64,000 nt of DNA, taken from contig NZ_CP108002.1 of assembly GCF_041435055.1 (NCBI RefSeq), positions 806,001 through 870,000 on the forward strand, in the 5' to 3' direction. The notes below the pieces were generated by a model that was not told the origin of the DNA, did not search any database, and saw only the letters and a program-made list of their open reading frames with translations. This document shows, piece by piece, positions 19,308 to 25,176 of the stretch; positions within the stretch are counted from its first letter, which is position 1, and each line of letters begins with the position of its first letter. A program made the position numbers and the translations under genes. The stretch comes from Streptomyces sp. NBC_00341 (GTDB lineage Bacteria > Actinomycetota > Actinomycetes > Streptomycetales > Streptomycetaceae).

Positions 19308-20372
19308 GGCGTGTGTGGAGTTGTGATCTCGTGGGCCCCCGGCCCGGGAGGGTCGGGGGCCTTGGAGTAAAACGGTGGGGTGTCTCGACTTCAACTTTCA
19401 GATACCGAGTGGGAGTTCATCTCCCCGTTCCTGCCGGTCGGTGAGTACGGGCCGTACCCGGAGAACCTACGGGCGCACTTCGAGGGCGTCGTGTGGCGGT
19501 TCAGGAACGGTGCGAAATGGCGGGAGTTGCCCGAACGATTCCGGCACTGATCCACCGTTTACGGCCGGTTTCGACAGTGGCGGGATGCCGGGGTGTTCAC
19601 CGCGGTGTTCCAGGGCGCGATCGCCGAGGCGGCGAAGCAGGGCCTGGTGGACTTGTCGCTGGTCAGCGTGGACTCGACCACGGTCCGGGCCCATCATGAT
19701 GCTGCCGGGATGATCGTGGAGCCCGAGATCCTGGACGCGGTGGAGAAGGCCGCCGCGGAAAAAGGGGCGCCAGCCAGGAACAAGACGGGCAACTGGACCC
19801 GGAGCGGGAAGAACGACGACGCGTGAGGCGTCGCCGCAGGGCCCGGCTCGCCGCTGCTGACCTGGGACGTTCCCGCGGCGGACTGACCACCAAGACGCAT
19901 CTGTCCTGTGTGCCGCAATGCCTGCCCCTCTCACTCAAGCTCACTGCGGGGCAAGCCGGGGACAGTCCGCAGTTCATCCCCGTCCTGAACAAGATCCGCG
20001 TCCCGGGCCCGGTCGGGCGGCCCCGCACCCGGCCCGACGCAGTCGCGGGCGATAAGGCGTACTCGTCCCGCCAGAATCGTTCCCACCTGCGCAAACGTGG
20101 GATCAAAGCGGTCATTCCCGAGAAGAAGGATCAGGCCACCCACCGCAAGAACCGCGGCTCACGCGGCGGACGGCCCGTCACCTGGGACAAGCAGCTGTAC
20201 AAGCTCCGCAACAGCGTCGAACGCACCATCAACAAGATCAAGGACTGGCGCGGTCTCGCTGTCCGCTACGACAAAAATCCTGAAAGCTACCAGGCCGGAC
20301 TCGAATTATGCGCCGACCTCCTCTGGATCCGACACCTCGGATCACAGCCTTGATCACAACTCCACACAGGCC
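19308..20372 (+). mobile_element. IS5-family insertion sequence (IS427-like), 1065 bp
   Basis: Terminal inverted repeats of 21 bp (19308-19328 and 20352-20372) differ at one position and are flanked by the direct repeat CTAG (19304-19307 and 20373-20376), the target duplication expected for the IS427 group. Inside lie two overlapping transposase frames. The element sits between the small helical gene and the 3' end of yjbQ and does not interrupt either. Confidence 0.88.
19380..20353 (+). pseudogene. IS5-family DDE transposase, inactivated by a nonsense codon
   Basis: Frame A starts at GTG 19380 (VSRLQLSDTEWEFISPF) and ends at 19826. Frame B (19823-20353) follows in the -1 frame, so the element normally uses a programmed frameshift. 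The DDE residues are all present: Asp in VSVDSTTVRAHH (frame A), Asp in VAGDKAYSS and Glu in NSVERTINKIKDWR (frame B). Frame A, however, has an in-frame TGA at 19548-19550, where relatives have the Trp of a W-STVYGRF segment (TGG to TGA). Frame A is thus split into ~56 residues and an internal remainder; the copy should be unable to make full transposase. It could still be moved in trans. Confidence 0.85.
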
Positions 20373-20394: not shown

Positions 20395-20841
20395 CTACAG
20401 TGACGGGGAACTTTGCCCCAAACCGAGGAACGACAACCGCACCTGACGGTTGCGGTTCGAGACGTTCGTATCGACCAGGCACACCGACTGCCAAGTCCCC
20501 AGCTCCAGCCGCCCCGCGATCACCGGGAGTGTCGCGTGCGGCGGGACGAGGGCCGGCAGTACGTGGTCGCGGCCGTGGCCGGGGCTGCCGTGGCGGTGCT
20601 GCCAGCGGTCGTCGGCGGGAAGCAGGGTGTGCAGGGCGGAGAGGAGGTCGTCGTCGCTGCCCGCGCCGGTTTCGAGGACCGCGATCCCCGCTGTCGCGTG
20701 CGGTACGAAGATGTTGAGGAGTCCGTCCCGGCCGGCGGCCGCCCGGGTGAGGAACTGTTCGCAGTCGGACGTCAGATCGGTGACGGTCTCCGTGGTTCCT
20801 GTGGTGATGTGCAGGACGCTGGTGGTGAAGGCGGTGGACAT
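20395..20841 (-). CDS. yjbQ: YjbQ family protein (UPF0047)
   Basis: A 148-residue single-domain protein of the YjbQ/UPF0047 family, a compact beta fold that forms trimers. Hallmarks: NIFVPHATAGIAVLETG (~43-59), DDDLLSALHTLLP, the His-rich GHGRDHVLPALV and the C-terminal LGTWQSVCLVDTN. Family members have weak thiamine-phosphate synthase activity in E. coli assays, and a link to ThiN exists, but the true role is uncertain. The C-terminus (LGLGQSSPSL) runs a few residues longer than usual. The insertion sequence ends 18 nt beyond the stop, so it has not truncated the gene. It is divergent to the sulfonate leader region. Confidence 0.88.
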   Translation of the reverse strand: MSTAFTTSVLHITTGTTETVTDLTSDCEQFLTRAAAGRDGLLNIFVPHATAGIAVLETGAGSDDDLLSALHTLLPADDRWQHRHGSPGHGRDHVLPALVPPHATLPVIAGRLELGTWQSVCLVDTNVSNRNRQVRLSFLGLGQSSPSL

Positions 20842-20896: not shown

Positions 20897-20926
20897 TTGA
20901 CCGTTTCATTGAGGGATCGCTACGTT
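20897..20926 (+). promoter_or_regulatory. Promoter of the leader peptide and ssu operon
   Basis: TTGACC (20897-20902) and TACGTT (20921-20926) are 18 nt apart. The leader ATG begins 8 nt after the -10 box, so transcription should start at or next to the ATG, giving a leaderless leader mRNA. Confidence 0.6.
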
Positions 20927-20933
20927 CAGCGCC

Positions 20934-21017
20934 ATGTTCCGATCAGCTCTGCTCACTTCGCGCGGTCACATCGACCTGCTGCGGGTGGCCTCCGCCGCTT
21001 GTTGTCGCGGCTGCTGA
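20934..21017 (+). CDS. Cys-rich leader peptide (27 aa) upstream of sulfonate genes
   Basis: A 27-codon gene from ATG 20934 to TGA 21015-21017. The peptide begins MFRSALLTSRGHIDLLR and ends ACCRGC, with three Cys codons among the last five positions. The ATG lies 8 nt past a -10-like hexamer, so it would be translated as a leaderless message. Peptides with this RSALLTSRGHIDLLR core are, as I remember them, common short leaders before sulfur-assimilation operons in actinomycetes, and Cys-rich leaders control cysteine-responsive attenuation in mycobacteria. The hairpin 20-60 nt downstream and the sulfonate operon fit that model: ribosome stalling at the Cys codons when cysteine is low would favour downstream expression. 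Too short for ordinary gene finders. Confidence 0.8.
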   Translation: MFRSALLTSRGHIDLLRVASAACCRGC

Positions 21018-21036
21018 CGTTCTCTCAACACTTTCC

Positions 21037-21076
21037 CGTCAGTGACCGGGCGCGAGGCGCCCGACCGCTCCTGACG
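21037..21076 (+). promoter_or_regulatory. Attenuator-like hairpin after the leader peptide
   Basis: CGTCAG (21037-21042) pairs with CTGACG (21071-21076), and inside it CGGGCGC (21047-21053) pairs with GCGCCCG (21057-21063) over a GAG loop; unpaired bulges lie between. It starts 20 nt after the leader stop and 157 nt before the permease start. It has no T-run, so either Rho-dependent termination or sequestration is possible. Confidence 0.5.
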
Positions 21077-21232
21077 TAGTACGCGTCCAGCCCCGCCCCT
21101 CCCGTGCCGCTCGGCCCTGCCGGATGCTCGCGGTGGTTCCTCGTGACCCCCGCCGGTACCGCACGGCCGTCGCCTGCCCGGGTGCCCGGTGCCGGGGCAC
21201 CTCCATCGCCATGAACCGTTCGTGGAGCCCAC

Positions 21233-22135
21233 ATGACTCTCGATCACGCTCTCGCCCCACCTGATATATCAGCCGAAATGGCAAAATCCGGCCAGGCGGA
21301 AGGTGCGGTTCGGCCCCGGTCGCTCGACCTGGAGCCCGTGACGCCGGCCACCGCCCGCGGGGTGCGGCTGCGGAACGTACCGCGGTGGCTTCGGCGCACC
21401 GCCGGTCCGCTGTTGCTGCTGGCCCTGTGGCAGGTGTTCAGCGCCACAGGTGTGCTGCATCCGGACGTACTGGCCTCGCCCGGCACCATCGCCCGCGCGG
21501 GATGGGATCTGATCGCGGACGGGACCCTCACCTCCGCGATGGCCGTCTCCCTCCAGCGGGTGGCGGTGGGGCTGGTGCTCGGCGGCGCTGTCGGGACGGC
21601 GCTCGCGCTGGTCTCGGGGCTCTCCCGGCTGGGTGAGGATCTGGTCGACGCGAGCGTCCAGATGCTGCGCACCGTTCCGTGGGTCGGGCTGATCCCGCTG
21701 TTCATCATCTGGCTGGGAATCGGTGAGGCCCCCAAGGTGGCGCTGATCGCGCTGGGTGTGGCCTTCCATCTGTATCTCAACGTGTATGCGGGCATTCGCG
21801 GTGTGGATCCCCAACTCATCGAGGCAGGTGAGTCGTTGGGGCTCGGGCGCTGGGGGCTGGTGCGGCATGTGGTGCTGCCGGGGGCGTTGCCCGGGGCCAT
21901 GACGGGGCTGCGCTACTCGCTGGCGACCGCGTGGCTGGCTCTGGTGTTCGGCGAGTCGGTCAACGCCGATGCCGGAATCGGCTTCCTGATGAACCAGGCC
22001 AGGGAGTTCTTCCGTACCGACGTCATCGTCGTCTGCCTGGTGGTCTACGCCTTCCTCGGCCTCGCCGCCGATGTCATCGTCCGCATTCTCGAAAGGCTGC
22101 TGCTGCAATGGCGACCGACCTTCACGGGCCAGTGA
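21233..22135 (+). CDS. ssuC: Sulfonate ABC transporter permease
   Basis: A 300-residue protein with a ~55-residue polar N-terminal extension and about six membrane segments, of the nitrate/taurine/sulfonate permease family. The hallmark cytoplasmic loop IEAGESLGLGRWGLVRHVVLP is near residue 200, after MLRTVPWVGLIPLFIIWLG. It starts at an ATG with GTGGAG 6 nt upstream. The genes ssuB, ssuA and ssuD follow, closely spaced or overlapping. Family knowledge: with SsuB and SsuA it imports alkanesulfonates as sulfur sources, normally under sulfate or cysteine limitation. The Cys-rich leader upstream supports that regulation. Confidence 0.9.
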   Translation: MTLDHALAPPDISAEMAKSGQAEGAVRPRSLDLEPVTPATARGVRLRNVPRWLRRTAGPLLLLALWQVFSATGVLHPDVLASPGTIARAGWDLIADGTLTSAMAVSLQRVAVGLVLGGAVGTALALVSGLSRLGEDLVDASVQMLRTVPWVGLIPLFIIWLGIGEAPKVALIALGVAFHLYLNVYAGIRGVDPQLIEAGESLGLGRWGLVRHVVLPGALPGAMTGLRYSLATAWLALVFGESVNADAGIGFLMNQAREFFRTDVIVVCLVVYAFLGLAADVIVRILERLLLQWRPTFTGQ

Positions 22136-22887
22136 CCAACCACTCCCCCGCCCAGGCCGGCACGCTGCCGGAAGCCGCCGTACGGGTCGAGGGGCTGTCC
22201 CGTTCCTTCGACGGCCGGGACGTCATCGACGGGCTCGATCTGACCCTGCGCGCCGGGGAGTTCACCGTGCTGCTCGGGCGCAGCGGCTGCGGCAAGTCGA
22301 CCCTGCTGCGGGTGCTCGCCGGCCTCGACCGGGAGATCCGGGGGACGGTGCTGGTGCCCCGGCGCCGGGCCGTGGCGTTCCAGGCGCCGCGGCTGATGCC
22401 CTGGAAGCGGGTCTGGCGCAACGTACTGCTCGGGCTGCCCGGGAAGCCGGAACGGGACGTCGCCGAGAAGGCGTTGGCGGAGGTCGGGCTCAGCGAGCGG
22501 TCAGGGGCCTGGCCCAGGACCCTCTCGGGCGGTGAGGCACAGCGCGCCTCGCTCGCTCGGGCGCTGGTCCGCGAGCCCGATCTGCTGCTGCTCGACGAGC
22601 CGTTCGGCGCACTCGACGCGCTGACCAGGATCAAGGCCCAGCAGCTGGTGGCCGAGCTCTGGCAGCGCCGGGGCTGCGCCGTACTGCTCGTCACGCACGA
22701 CGTGGACGAGGCACTGCTCCTCGCCGATCGCGCGCTGGTCATGCGGGACGGCGCCATCGCCTACGAGACGTCGGTGGGCCTGGACCGGCCGCGTAACCCC
22801 GGTACACCGGAGTTCGCCGCGCTGCGCACCCGGCTGCTCACCGAACTCGGCGTGGAGACAGCCCCCGCGCCCACCGGCACCTCCTGA
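22108..22887 (+). CDS. ssuB: Sulfonate ABC transporter ATP-binding protein
   Basis: A 259-residue ABC ATPase. Walker A is GRSGCGKST (~58-66), the Q-loop lies in AVAFQAPRLMPWKRV, the signature is LSGGEAQRASLARAL and Walker B LLLLDEPFGALD, with the switch His in LLVTHDVDEA. These are standard features of the nitrate/sulfonate (SsuB/TauB) ATPases. The ATG at 22108, with GAAAGG 11 nt upstream, overlaps the permease end by 28 nt; a GTG at 22132 overlapping the stop codon (GTGA) is an equally plausible start and would shorten it by 8 residues. It energises the SsuC permease. Confidence 0.9.
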   Translation: MATDLHGPVTNHSPAQAGTLPEAAVRVEGLSRSFDGRDVIDGLDLTLRAGEFTVLLGRSGCGKSTLLRVLAGLDREIRGTVLVPRRRAVAFQAPRLMPWKRVWRNVLLGLPGKPERDVAEKALAEVGLSERSGAWPRTLSGGEAQRASLARALVREPDLLLLDEPFGALDALTRIKAQQLVAELWQRRGCAVLLVTHDVDEALLLADRALVMRDGAIAYETSVGLDRPRNPGTPEFAALRTRLLTELGVETAPAPTGTS

Positions 22888-22942: not shown

Positions 22943-23971
22943 ATGAATCGCCGTACCCTGCCCGCGCTCCTGCTCCCCCTTGCCCTGCTGCTCACCGCCT
23001 GCGGTGGCGCGAGCTCCGCCTCCACGGCGGGCAGCACCGACGGCAAGGGCAGCGTCACGCTCAACATCGGTGATCAGAAGGGTGGTTACGAGGCCATCCT
23101 GCGCGCCTCCGGCGAGCTGGACGACCTCGGTTACCGCATCAAATGGTCCACCTTCACCTCCGGTCCGCCACTACTTGAGGCGGTCAACGCCGGGGCCGTG
23201 GACATCGGCGGGGTCGGCAACACCCCGCCGGTGTTCGCCGCAGGTGCCGGTTCCAAGGTCGTGGTGGTGGGCGCCACGCACGGTTCCTCGGCCGGTGAGG
23301 CGATCGTGGTCCCCAAGGACTCACCGCTGCGGAGTCCGGCCCAGCTCAAGGGCAGGTCGATCGCTGTGGCCCAGGGCAGCTCCGCCCACTTCCAGCTCAT
23401 CAGTTCTCTGAAGAAGGCGGGGCTCAGCCTCTCGGACGTGAAGCTGAAGTACCTCCAGCCGGCCGACGCCCTGGCCGCGTTCACCCGGGGCAAGGTCGAC
23501 GCCTGGGCGATCTGGGACCCGTACACCTCGCAGGTGCTGCGCGGCGGGAAGGCGCGGGTCCTGACGACGGGTGAAGGGGTCGTCAACGGTCTCGGGTTCC
23601 AGGTCGCCTCACCCGCCGCGCTCAAGGATGCCGGGAAGTCCAAGGCCATCGGTGATCTGCTCGTCCGGCTGAACCGGGCGCAGGGCTGGGTGTTCAAACA
23701 CCCCGACGCGTGGGCGAAGGTCTGGGCGAAGGAGACCGGGCTGCCGTACGAGGTGGCACTGGACGCGGTGAAGCTGACGGCCGGTACCCGGGTCCCCGTC
23801 GCCATCGACCCGGCCGCGATCGCCTCCGAGCAGGAGATCGCGGACACCTTCGCGGATCTGAAGCTCATCCCGCGCCGCTTCGTCTTCAAGGACTTCGTCG
23901 ACACCCGCTTCAACCGCGACCTCCCCGCGTCCTCCGCGACCCCGCGCTCGTACGGAAAGGCCTCCTCATGA
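22943..23971 (+). CDS. ssuA: Sulfonate ABC transporter substrate-binding lipoprotein
   Basis: A 342-residue lipoprotein with signal MNRRTLPALLLPLALLLTAC, Cys at residue 20 being the lipidated residue. The mature protein is a type 2 periplasmic binding protein (NMT1/SsuA-like): NIGDQKGGYEAILRASGEL, FTSGPPLLEAVNAGAVDIGG, IAVAQGSSAHFQLISSLKKA and VDAWAIWDPYTSQVL, matching aliphatic-sulfonate receptors. GGAGAGAG precedes the ATG. It overlaps ssuD by 4 nt (ATGA). It should bind alkanesulfonates outside the cell and hand them to SsuC. Confidence 0.9.
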   Translation: MNRRTLPALLLPLALLLTACGGASSASTAGSTDGKGSVTLNIGDQKGGYEAILRASGELDDLGYRIKWSTFTSGPPLLEAVNAGAVDIGGVGNTPPVFAAGAGSKVVVVGATHGSSAGEAIVVPKDSPLRSPAQLKGRSIAVAQGSSAHFQLISSLKKAGLSLSDVKLKYLQPADALAAFTRGKVDAWAIWDPYTSQVLRGGKARVLTTGEGVVNGLGFQVASPAALKDAGKSKAIGDLLVRLNRAQGWVFKHPDAWAKVWAKETGLPYEVALDAVKLTAGTRVPVAIDPAAIASEQEIADTFADLKLIPRRFVFKDFVDTRFNRDLPASSATPRSYGKASS

Positions 23972-25176
23972 ACGTCCACCTGCACTGGTTCCTGCCCACG
24001 GGCGGCGACGGGCGCACGCTCGTCGACCGGCACGCGTACACCGACGGCGGGATCAAGCGGGACCGGATCACTCCGGTCAGCGGGGTGCGCGCACCCGACA
24101 TCGAGTACCTGGCGCAGATCGCCAAGGCCGCCGAGCAGTTGGGGTTCGAGGCGGTGCTGACGCCGACCGGGACCTGGTGCGAGGACGCCTGGCTCACGAC
24201 CGTGGCGCTGGCCCAGCACACCGAGCGGCTGAAGTTCCTGGTGGCGTTCCGGCCGGGCGTGATCTCGCCGGTCCTGGCCGCGCAGATGGCCGCGACGTAT
24301 CAGCGGATCACCCGGGGGCGGCTGCTGCTCAATGTCGTGACGGGCGGTGACTCCACGGAGCAGCGTAGGTTCGGTGACCATCTGGACCATGACCGGCGCT
24401 ACGCGAGGACCGCGGAGTTCCTGTCGGTGGTGCGGGGTGCGTGGAGCGGCCGGCCGTTCGACTTCGACGGTGAGCACTACCAGGTGGAGGGCGGGCTGAC
24501 GGCGCTGCCGCCGGATCCGCTGCCGGAGATCTTCTTCGGGGGTTCGTCGGCCGCCGCCGGGCCGGTCGCGGCCGCGCACGCCGATGTCTACCTGACCTGG
24601 GGCGAGCCGCCCGCCGACGTGAAGAAGAAGATCGACTGGATCCGGGGGCTCGCCGAGGAGCAGGGCCGCACTGTCCGGTTCGGGATCCGGCTGCACACCA
24701 TCTCGCGCGATTCGTCGCGCGAGGCGTGGGCGACCGCCGACCGGCTGCTGGGCGATCTCGACGCCGACACGGTCGCCGCGGCCCAGCAGGCGCTGGGGCG
24801 GAGCGAGTCCGTGGGGCAGCAGCGGATGCTGGCGCTGCACGGGGGCTCGCGCGACAAGCTGGAGATCGCGCCCAACCTGTGGGCCGGTGTCGGCCTGGTA
24901 CGGGGCGGCGCCGGCACCGCGCTGGTCGGCAGCCACGCCGAGGTCGCGGACCGGATCGAGGAGTACCACGCCCTGGGGGTGGAGCACTTCGTGCTCTCCG
25001 GATACCCGCATCTGGAGGAGGCGTACTGGTTCGGCGAGGGCGTCGCTCCGGAGCTGGCGGCCCGGGGGCTGCTGTCGACGGTCCCGTCGTCCCCGCTCTC
25101 GGCGGTCCCCGCGGCGAACGGCCGTCCGGCCTCCGCTCCGGGTGGTGCGCCGCTGCTGATCGCCGGGGGGCGCTGA
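23968..25176 (+). CDS. ssuD: FMNH2-dependent alkanesulfonate monooxygenase
   Basis: A 402-residue member of the bacterial luciferase-like family. It starts MNVHLHWFLPTGGDGRTL and shows AEQLGFEAVLTPTGTWCEDAW (~50-70), RPGVISPVLAAQMAATYQ, LNVVTGGDS, EIFFGGSSAAAG and the C-terminal HFVLSGYPHLEEAYWFGEG, all characteristic of SsuD. The usual length is ~380; an Ala/Pro-rich tail of about 20 residues explains the excess. It converts alkanesulfonates to aldehydes and sulfite with FMNH2 and oxygen and depends on a flavin reductase that is not encoded nearby. The ATGA overlap with ssuA couples translation; it ends the ssu operon. Confidence 0.92.
   Translation: MNVHLHWFLPTGGDGRTLVDRHAYTDGGIKRDRITPVSGVRAPDIEYLAQIAKAAEQLGFEAVLTPTGTWCEDAWLTTVALAQHTERLKFLVAFRPGVISPVLAAQMAATYQRITRGRLLLNVVTGGDSTEQRRFGDHLDHDRRYARTAEFLSVVRGAWSGRPFDFDGEHYQVEGGLTALPPDPLPEIFFGGSSAAAGPVAAAHADVYLTWGEPPADVKKKIDWIRGLAEEQGRTVRFGIRLHTISRDSSREAWATADRLLGDLDADTVAAAQQALGRSESVGQQRMLALHGGSRDKLEIAPNLWAGVGLVRGGAGTALVGSHAEVADRIEEYHALGVEHFVLSGYPHLEEAYWFGEGVAPELAARGLLSTVPSSPLSAVPAANGRPASAPGGAPLLIAGGR

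Follow-up and report, generated by a model that had tools for sequence, protein, structure and literature searches.

The ssu locus and its leader

The window (the whole stretch of 64,000 nucleotides of Streptomyces sp. NBC_00341 that was analysed) carries four ssu-like genes on its forward strand: an ssuC-like ABC permease (21233-22135; PF00528), an ssuB-like ABC ATPase (22108-22887; PF00005), an ssuA-like substrate-binding protein (22943-23971; PF09084 and PF13379) and an ssuD-like flavin monooxygenase of the luciferase-like kind (23968-25176; PF00296). The order ssuCBA-ssuD given in an earlier note on this DNA is borne out by these fitting domains. Ahead of ssuC, on the same strand, lies the 27-codon ORF that the same note had placed behind a -10-like box (20934-21017; ATG at 20934, stop at 21015-21017); its translation, read directly from the window, is MFRSALLTSRGHIDLLRVASAACCRGC. 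Between the ORF and ssuC stretches a C-rich, G-poor spacer (21018-21232, forward strand) that contains a hairpin sequence at 21037-21076 and diverges quickly between clades. On the other side of the leader is a divergent UPF0047 gene (20395-20841), itself preceded by two reading frames (19375-20353) that resemble, by eye, fragments of a transposase-like protein.

The putative promoter (20898-20926, forward strand) consists of a -35 element, TTGACC (20898-20903), that the earlier note did not have, a 17-nt spacer and a -10 element, TACGTT (20921-20926), that ends 7 nt before the leader ATG. A scan of the window for a strict sigma-70 consensus called no promoter: it demands four of six matches to TATAAT, and TACGTT has three. 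Both elements fit those reported, in the available excerpt, for S. lividans, TAnnnT and nTGACn (PMC8079986). The pattern TTGAC-17/18-TAnnnT-6/7-ATG recurs at 75 of 76 ssu loci (the remaining one, L038, has TTGCCC), and this conservation of the promoter-to-ATG spacing makes a leaderless transcript likely. In the wider family of leaders described below, TAnnnT stands 5-8 nt ahead of the in-frame start in 73 of 168 cases, against 1 of 317 out-of-frame starts. The window's leader transcript, judged by its sequence, is thus probably leaderless, as had been proposed; in S. coelicolor, leaderless mRNAs are put at 21% in the excerpt available (PMC4895711).

What the ssu leaders share

A search with SsuC as query yielded 80 Streptomyces ssu loci, and the leader is present in all 77 that could be assessed (L030 and L074 run into contig ends, and L044 into an N gap). 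Its core, LLTSRGHIDLLRVASAAC, encoded at 20949-21002 (forward strand), comprises R(-13), D(-9), L(-8), R(-6), a small residue at -3 and C(0), with fixed spacing between these residues; in the ssu leaders LLT(S/T)RGHIDLLRVASAAC is nearly invariant. The motif can be written R-x-(H/A)-(V/I)-D-L-x-R-x-x-(S/G)-x-x-C. Among unique cores of the wider family, R(-13) and R(-6) are found in 160 of 161 and D(-9) in 161 of 161, frequencies for which the profile search has itself partly selected.

Past Cys23, the tail varies freely (RRGC, CRGC, RRGR, PGLR and others), and 21 of 76 ssu leaders have a single Cys. The two adjacent Cys codons of the window's leader accordingly fail as a conserved feature, and its Cys run is incidental; the Cys-rich tail that the earlier note had singled out drops away. 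The alignment of upstream regions that it had suggested retrieves one conserved Cys codon (78 of 78 leaders) and neither the other Cys codons nor the downstream hairpin (4 of 76 loci).

A known family of leaders and its genes

The window's peptide scores 31.5 bits against the NCBIfam model NF042934 (cis_reg_atten, "putative leader peptide"), passing its cut-off of 27. The kind of leader is therefore already known, and the window's is a real, conserved member of it. This comparison is by model name and scores, among which the codon rule, the in-ORF hairpin and the mechanism taken up below do not figure. Scores against two named models of mycobacterial Cys-rich leaders, NF042936 (Ms4527A, 21.4 bits) and NF042933 (Ms5788A, 16.6 bits), stay below their 45-bit cut-off. 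Records of an S. clavuligerus plasmid give such ORFs the product name "putative leader peptide". The window has no Rfam match at gathering score, to the T-box or to other cis-elements.

The window's genome holds 12 family leaders at E up to 0.01 (12 of 20 rows of the profile search were kept; the eight dropped had E above 0.3). The family is present in 41 of 41 sampled genomes of the genus and, across the class, in at least 197 of 296 genomes and at least 72 of 105 genera; a sample of the phylum gave 15 positive genomes in 246, all 15 of the window's own class. Counts of leaders per genome are lower bounds throughout. Six of 79 added stretches were dropped as repeats of loci already in the set. 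A single Cys is all that 63 of 167 distinct family leaders possess.

Downstream Pfam domains were assigned for 91 of 173 loci, and for 10 of the window's genome, in ORFs picked by a length and GC3 rule. In the window's genome, the domain list covers eleven leaders, whose links to genes are positional and in some cases span several hundred bases: PALP (cysteine synthase-like), CDO_I (cysteine dioxygenase), NIR_SIR, Cys_Met_Meta_PP, Rhodanese, Bac_luciferase, SDF symporter, SBP_bac_5, Flavin_Reduct, ROK and the ssuC permease. Over the 91 sampled loci the commonest are Rhodanese (14), NIR_SIR (12), SBP_bac_5 (8), Bac_luciferase (8) and SDF (7), followed by TauD (4), BPD_transp_1 (4), sulfatase (3), CDO_I (3) and PAPS reductase (3). 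Plain sulfur domains account for about half of these loci; transporters, oxidoreductases and genes that could not be placed make up the remainder. Cysteine dioxygenase is a catabolic target, and does not fit with simple induction by cysteine starvation. The leader before the cysteine dioxygenase gene in L090, of the window's genome, is a well-conserved sister type (RRVHMDL-RYAGC-C); similar leaders occur at L119, L130, L132, L133 and L135.

One codon, one synonym

The codon of Cys23, the last residue of the motif, is TGT (21000-21002, forward strand); it is the proposed sensor. All 78 ssu leaders (76 of the codon table plus L017 and L061) spell the motif Cys as TGT, as do all 11 Cys-bearing leaders of the window's genome. 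Of 173 family leaders examined in 87 genomes, 171 possess a Cys nine residues past the invariant Asp, and in 169 of these its codon is TGT. If full profile matches alone are counted, the figure is 167 of 169: 169 of the 173 loci reach profile position 19, two more carry the motif Cys beyond the local match and two have none. (For sixteen of the 87 genomes every listed match was taken, 101 leaders in all; the window's genome was taken at E up to 0.01.) Loci fetched later, many of them orthologs of earlier ones, have TGT in 21 of 22 cases. The rule is not absolute, since L173, L259 and L287 have TGC, the latter two being of one Cys-run type. Cys-run leaders (14 in all, 13 with TGT as motif codon) have the same VDLCR core, of which they seem to be an elaboration.

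How unusual is this? Among 308 Cys codons from downstream ORFs selected by length, about 10% are TGT; the counts are 7 of 80 in ssuC genes and 41 of 204 in annotated genes of the S. clavuligerus plasmid sample. The leaders provide an internal control: their Cys codons are TGC in 57 of 61 cases at -7, 27 of 40 at -2 and 45 of 76 in the tail. Over aligned codons -18 to +2, the chi-square for codon bias is by far the largest at the motif Cys (1409); next are Ser -3 (AGC in 79% against 25% in genes; 177), for which a local hairpin was tried as the cause and found unsupported, and Asp -9 (GAT in 32% against 11%; 75). Codons for the motif Arg and His residues follow near-background synonym use, which argues that at those positions it is the amino acid, that is, the peptide, that is held. 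A single tRNA-Cys, with anticodon gca, was found by a search pattern that could miss others, so that UGU is probably read by G-U wobble. Two side observations: UGU is followed by C or T in 153 of 161 unique leaders, and by G in one; and an S. clavuligerus ORF (L276, 19941-20066), annotated "putative leader peptide" and situated near LLM monooxygenases, has the core without the motif Cys, as do L007 (in the window's genome) and L235.

A small protein working in trans would account for the strong conservation of amino acids. Protein function cannot, however, select UGU over UGC, the tail is variable, and distinct copies stand before separate operons; we regard this explanation as scarcely credible. 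Two other notions were tried and set aside. A regulated frameshift at UGU was rejected, since dinucleotide shuffles of the spacer leave the +1 and -1 frames at least as open. A family-wide local hairpin as the reason for UGU was rejected as well: partition functions over the family leaders had hinted at one hairpin register, and were followed by a count of 4-pair runs (0.24 against 0.25 in the synonymous null) and by a count of pairable cells against column expectation for its five pairs (98/98, 97/96, 92/87, 76/62 and 69/75). The family leaders fold slightly worse than their synonymous recodings (mean z +0.38).

In the literature searched, which took in few subscription papers and not Canestrari et al. 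2020, no mention of the UGU rule turned up. The new content here is this one-codon rule, together with the hairpin inside the ssu leader ORF.

A predicted three-stem RNA inside the ssu leader ORF

The ssu leader RNA is predicted to fold within its own reading frame into three stems, all on the forward strand: P2 (20951-20989; ORF nt 18-34 with 40-56, 15 pairs, with offset bulges); a weaker P3 (20994-21011; ORF nt 61-65 with 74-78), whose loop holds UGU, the codon that lies 10 nt past the end of P2; and a closing stem, P1, whose 5' strand (20943-20947) has a partner (21013-21017) that includes the stop codon. Separate alignments of two clades led to much the same three stems, P3 differing somewhat.

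Pairing was counted on the 52 distinct ORFs of 84 nt (69 of 76 loci have that length), from some of which the structure had been derived. P2 keeps 14.90 of its 15 pairs, against 10.86 under synonymous recoding; P1 keeps 4.62 against 3.48, and has at least four of its five pairs in 97% of 59 distinct ORFs against 53% in the null; P3 keeps 4.67 of 5 against 3.75, with 93.5% of cells paired. For the whole structure, 96.8% of cells pair in the 52 ORFs, and slid structures reach at most 60.2%. Covariation is slight (two pairs and four cells with two-sided changes; 21 and 1 of 500 shuffles attain as much); few pairs vary, and the synonymous-codon test is therefore the main evidence for pairing within the ORF. 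Third positions never vary at the paired codons 7, 9, 11, 14-16, 18 and 21; they vary at the unpaired codons 2, 3, 5, 12, 19, 22 and 24. Among unpaired codons, 23 alone never varies; 13 (51 of 52 alike) and 20 (47 of 52) hardly do. As wholes, the ssu ORFs fold no better than their synonymous recodings (mean z -0.21; 0 of 59 below -1.5), so that P2 rests on the pairing counts. The window's own ORF folds mildly better than its dinucleotide shuffles (z -1.64; 10 of 200 shuffles do as well).

P2 is an ssu-specific layer of the sequence: other leader types show no trace of it (7.57 pairs against 7.56 in the null; n=155), and in the five other leaders of the GHIDL type it is weak or absent. It follows that P2 does not explain UGU. 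Might the frozen codons be a DNA operator or an RNA-protein site instead, with translation of the ORF incidental? Codons 6-18 are indeed frozen at the nucleotide level in the ssu leaders. Yet the offset bulges of P2 are unlike a two-fold operator, the third positions are most frozen precisely where they are paired, and other leader types retain the peptide and UGU without P2: a most improbable explanation.

Two details of the ORF are recorded here. Codon 4 (codons 4-5 are window positions 20943-20948) ends in A in 50 of the 52 distinct ssu ORFs, as TCA or ACA, both of which are rare here and pair with the stop-codon region; the codon could also serve leaderless initiation. At 20981-20996, in the P2/P3 region, two terminator-like words were found where 0.2 would be expected.

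The spacer and the ssuC start site

The nested inverted repeat in the spacer (CGTCAG at 21037-21042, CTGACG at 21071-21076) is present as the earlier note had it. In the window, its folding does not exceed chance (MFE z of -0.45 over the 90 nt past the stop and of -0.41 over 20934-21100); the outer stem is in register at 4 of 76 loci (the window, L009, L010 and L012) and the inner stem at 2 of 76, with one further match, out of register, at L055. No U-tract follows the hairpin in the window, and no conserved terminator hairpin with a U-tract was seen at the ssu loci. The classical terminator attenuator that had been proposed, in which Cys codons and this hairpin would choose between read-through and termination, can point to the repeat's existence in the window and three near relatives, and to the 90 nt past the stop being slightly more stable than shuffles over all 76 loci (mean z -0.72; nine below -2); moreover, at 58 of 76 loci CTGACG is also found across the ORF stop, which allows a competing pair to be drawn. 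With the hairpin in register at so few loci, lacking a U-tract and folding in the window no better than shuffles do, this kind of attenuator is highly improbable.

Could the RNA mask the ssuC start site instead, until a stalled ribosome relieves it, as proposed for the mycobacterial polycysteine leaders? In the window's clade, RNAalifold places the ssuC start region in a local hairpin and a long-range helix, and the second clade is likewise predicted to have a start-site hairpin. The predicted fold of spacer and ssuC start (21036-21249, eight sequences) has 18 two-sided changes, a number reached by none of 500 shuffles and by no slid structure (at most 7). These same eight sequences had, however, served to derive the fold, which spans a spacer whose alignment is loose, indeed poor. 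A usable Shine-Dalgarno sequence exists for 82 of 169 family leaders. Its exposure with native as against swapped leaders gives p=0.92 over the family (n=82), and with a stalled as against a free ribosome p=0.06 (n=82); at the ssu loci it is slightly less exposed with native leaders (p=0.05; n=76), and stalled against free gives p=0.46 (n=76). Pairing between leader and Shine-Dalgarno is thus weak or absent, and the notion that UGU is kept for such pairing found no support in the family test. The window leader does belong to the same family, NF042934, which speaks for masking; against it stand the negative family test, the lack of a stalled-versus-free difference at ssu loci and the 109-407 nt that separate the leader stop from ssuC. 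On balance masking is quite unlikely.

The spacers' mean C skew is 0.253 at the ssu loci (n=76) and 0.186 for the family (n=108), against 0.057 in a control of 46 stretches from one S. clavuligerus plasmid, with relatedness among loci not removed. Such C-rich, G-poor sequence would suit Rho; as proof of Rho it was rejected, the control being a single plasmid and kinship uncorrected.

A proposed mechanism

The ORF, its promoter pattern, the peptide motif, the UGU rule and the P2 pairing constraint are properties of the DNA as read. A rare codon whose position is fixed, behind a peptide that is fixed as well, is suggestive of a pause that requires low Cys-tRNA together with the nascent chain. 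Our preferred reading, to which we assign a probability of roughly 0.56, is that the leader is a cis-acting, leaderless regulator of ssu that answers to cysteine supply: the ribosome would pause at the single UGU, with help from the nascent peptide. Transcription would begin at the leader ATG, with a 70S ribosome translating from the outset. A shortage of charged tRNA-Cys would stop this ribosome while codon 23, the rare UGU read by wobble, occupies its A site; inside the exit tunnel, the conserved residues of the nascent chain (R..H.DL.R..S) would make the stop deeper or longer, and a single Cys codon would thereby be enough. With a footprint of the usual size, the halted ribosome would sit over P3, the base of P2 and the edge of P1, and the leader RNA would stay open; once the ribosome had passed UGU and gone, the leader would fold. 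The two states would differ either in whether transcription traverses the C-rich spacer, perhaps in opposition to Rho, or in whether ssuC is translated. The pause, its dependence on cysteine, the role of the peptide and the output are what we infer. Against a cysteine pause count the CDO_I targets, the leaders without the motif Cys (L007, L235 and the one of S. clavuligerus) and the lack of a conserved terminator. As for attenuation in the earlier note's general sense, what survives is a conserved leader with one Cys codon, of a known family found before sulfur genes; the Cys tail and the downstream hairpin, both unconserved, do not.

The alternative closest in kind is an arrest peptide like TnaC: the chain would bind cysteine or another sulfur compound in the tunnel, and the arrested ribosome would shield an adjacent Rho site. 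The precedent, as described in the available excerpt, shares a conserved nascent peptide and a Rho site beside the leader stop (PMC10941005); the fixed spacing of the peptide motif throughout the family and the C-rich spacer past the leader stop agree with it, and a cysteine dioxygenase target would be accommodated. TnaC, though, answers free Trp in excess, according to the same excerpt (PMC10941005), while the invariant codon here points to decoding: a peptide sensor offers no reason for UGU over UGC. Many of the targets, besides, are uptake and assimilation genes, which plenty should not induce. We consider a metabolite-sensing peptide unlikely.

Canestrari et al. 2020 are said to favour masking of the ribosome-binding site for the mycobacterial polycysteine leaders. 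How do the ssu leaders compare with these and with other known systems? The mycobacterial ORFs, in the excerpts available, are likewise leaderless (the ssu leaders probably so), have Cys codons and stand before sulfur genes (Canestrari et al. 2020, as described in PMC9031893, PMC9094748 and PMC13236596; also cited in the available part of PMC7790235); they differ in that one Cys alone is conserved in the ssu leaders. Cysteine-directed attenuation has been proposed in mycobacteria (PMC4633059, available excerpt). The candidate Cys leaders described by Seliverstov et al. 2005, as far as the available excerpt goes, resemble the window's leader in having Cys codons near the stop and no conserved terminator, Rho being suggested; they differ in their Cys runs, in Mycobacterium, Propionibacterium acnes and Bifidobacterium longum, and the excerpt names no Streptomyces Cys leader (PMC1262725). 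The leader peptides of S. lividans are leaderless, several without a clear terminator, as here; the amino acids given for the eight in the available excerpt are Leu, Trp, Ala, Ile, Met and Thr, with no Cys leader among them, and the Met leader, before metNIQ, has three Cys residues and, by eye, lacks the motif (PMC8079986).

Speculation can be carried further, at odds that lie somewhat against it: there may be a sulfur regulon, spanning the actinobacterial class, that is read at a single UGU nine residues past the invariant Asp of an arrest-like peptide, with the identity of that codon, UGU and not UGC, as the sensor. The three-stem RNA in the ssu ORF would then report the ribosome's passage, and may be an RNA-polymerase pause hairpin that synchronises the polymerase with the leaderless ribosome.

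In textbooks, attenuators that respond to an amino acid depend on runs of its codons. The present family appears to make do with one codon, and one synonym of it, beside a fixed peptide, in at least 197 of the 296 genomes of the class that were sampled. If this is true, nature has provided a test of how codon identity and nascent chain jointly set a ribosomal pause, and Streptomyces research would have a ready list of candidate cysteine-controlled operons.
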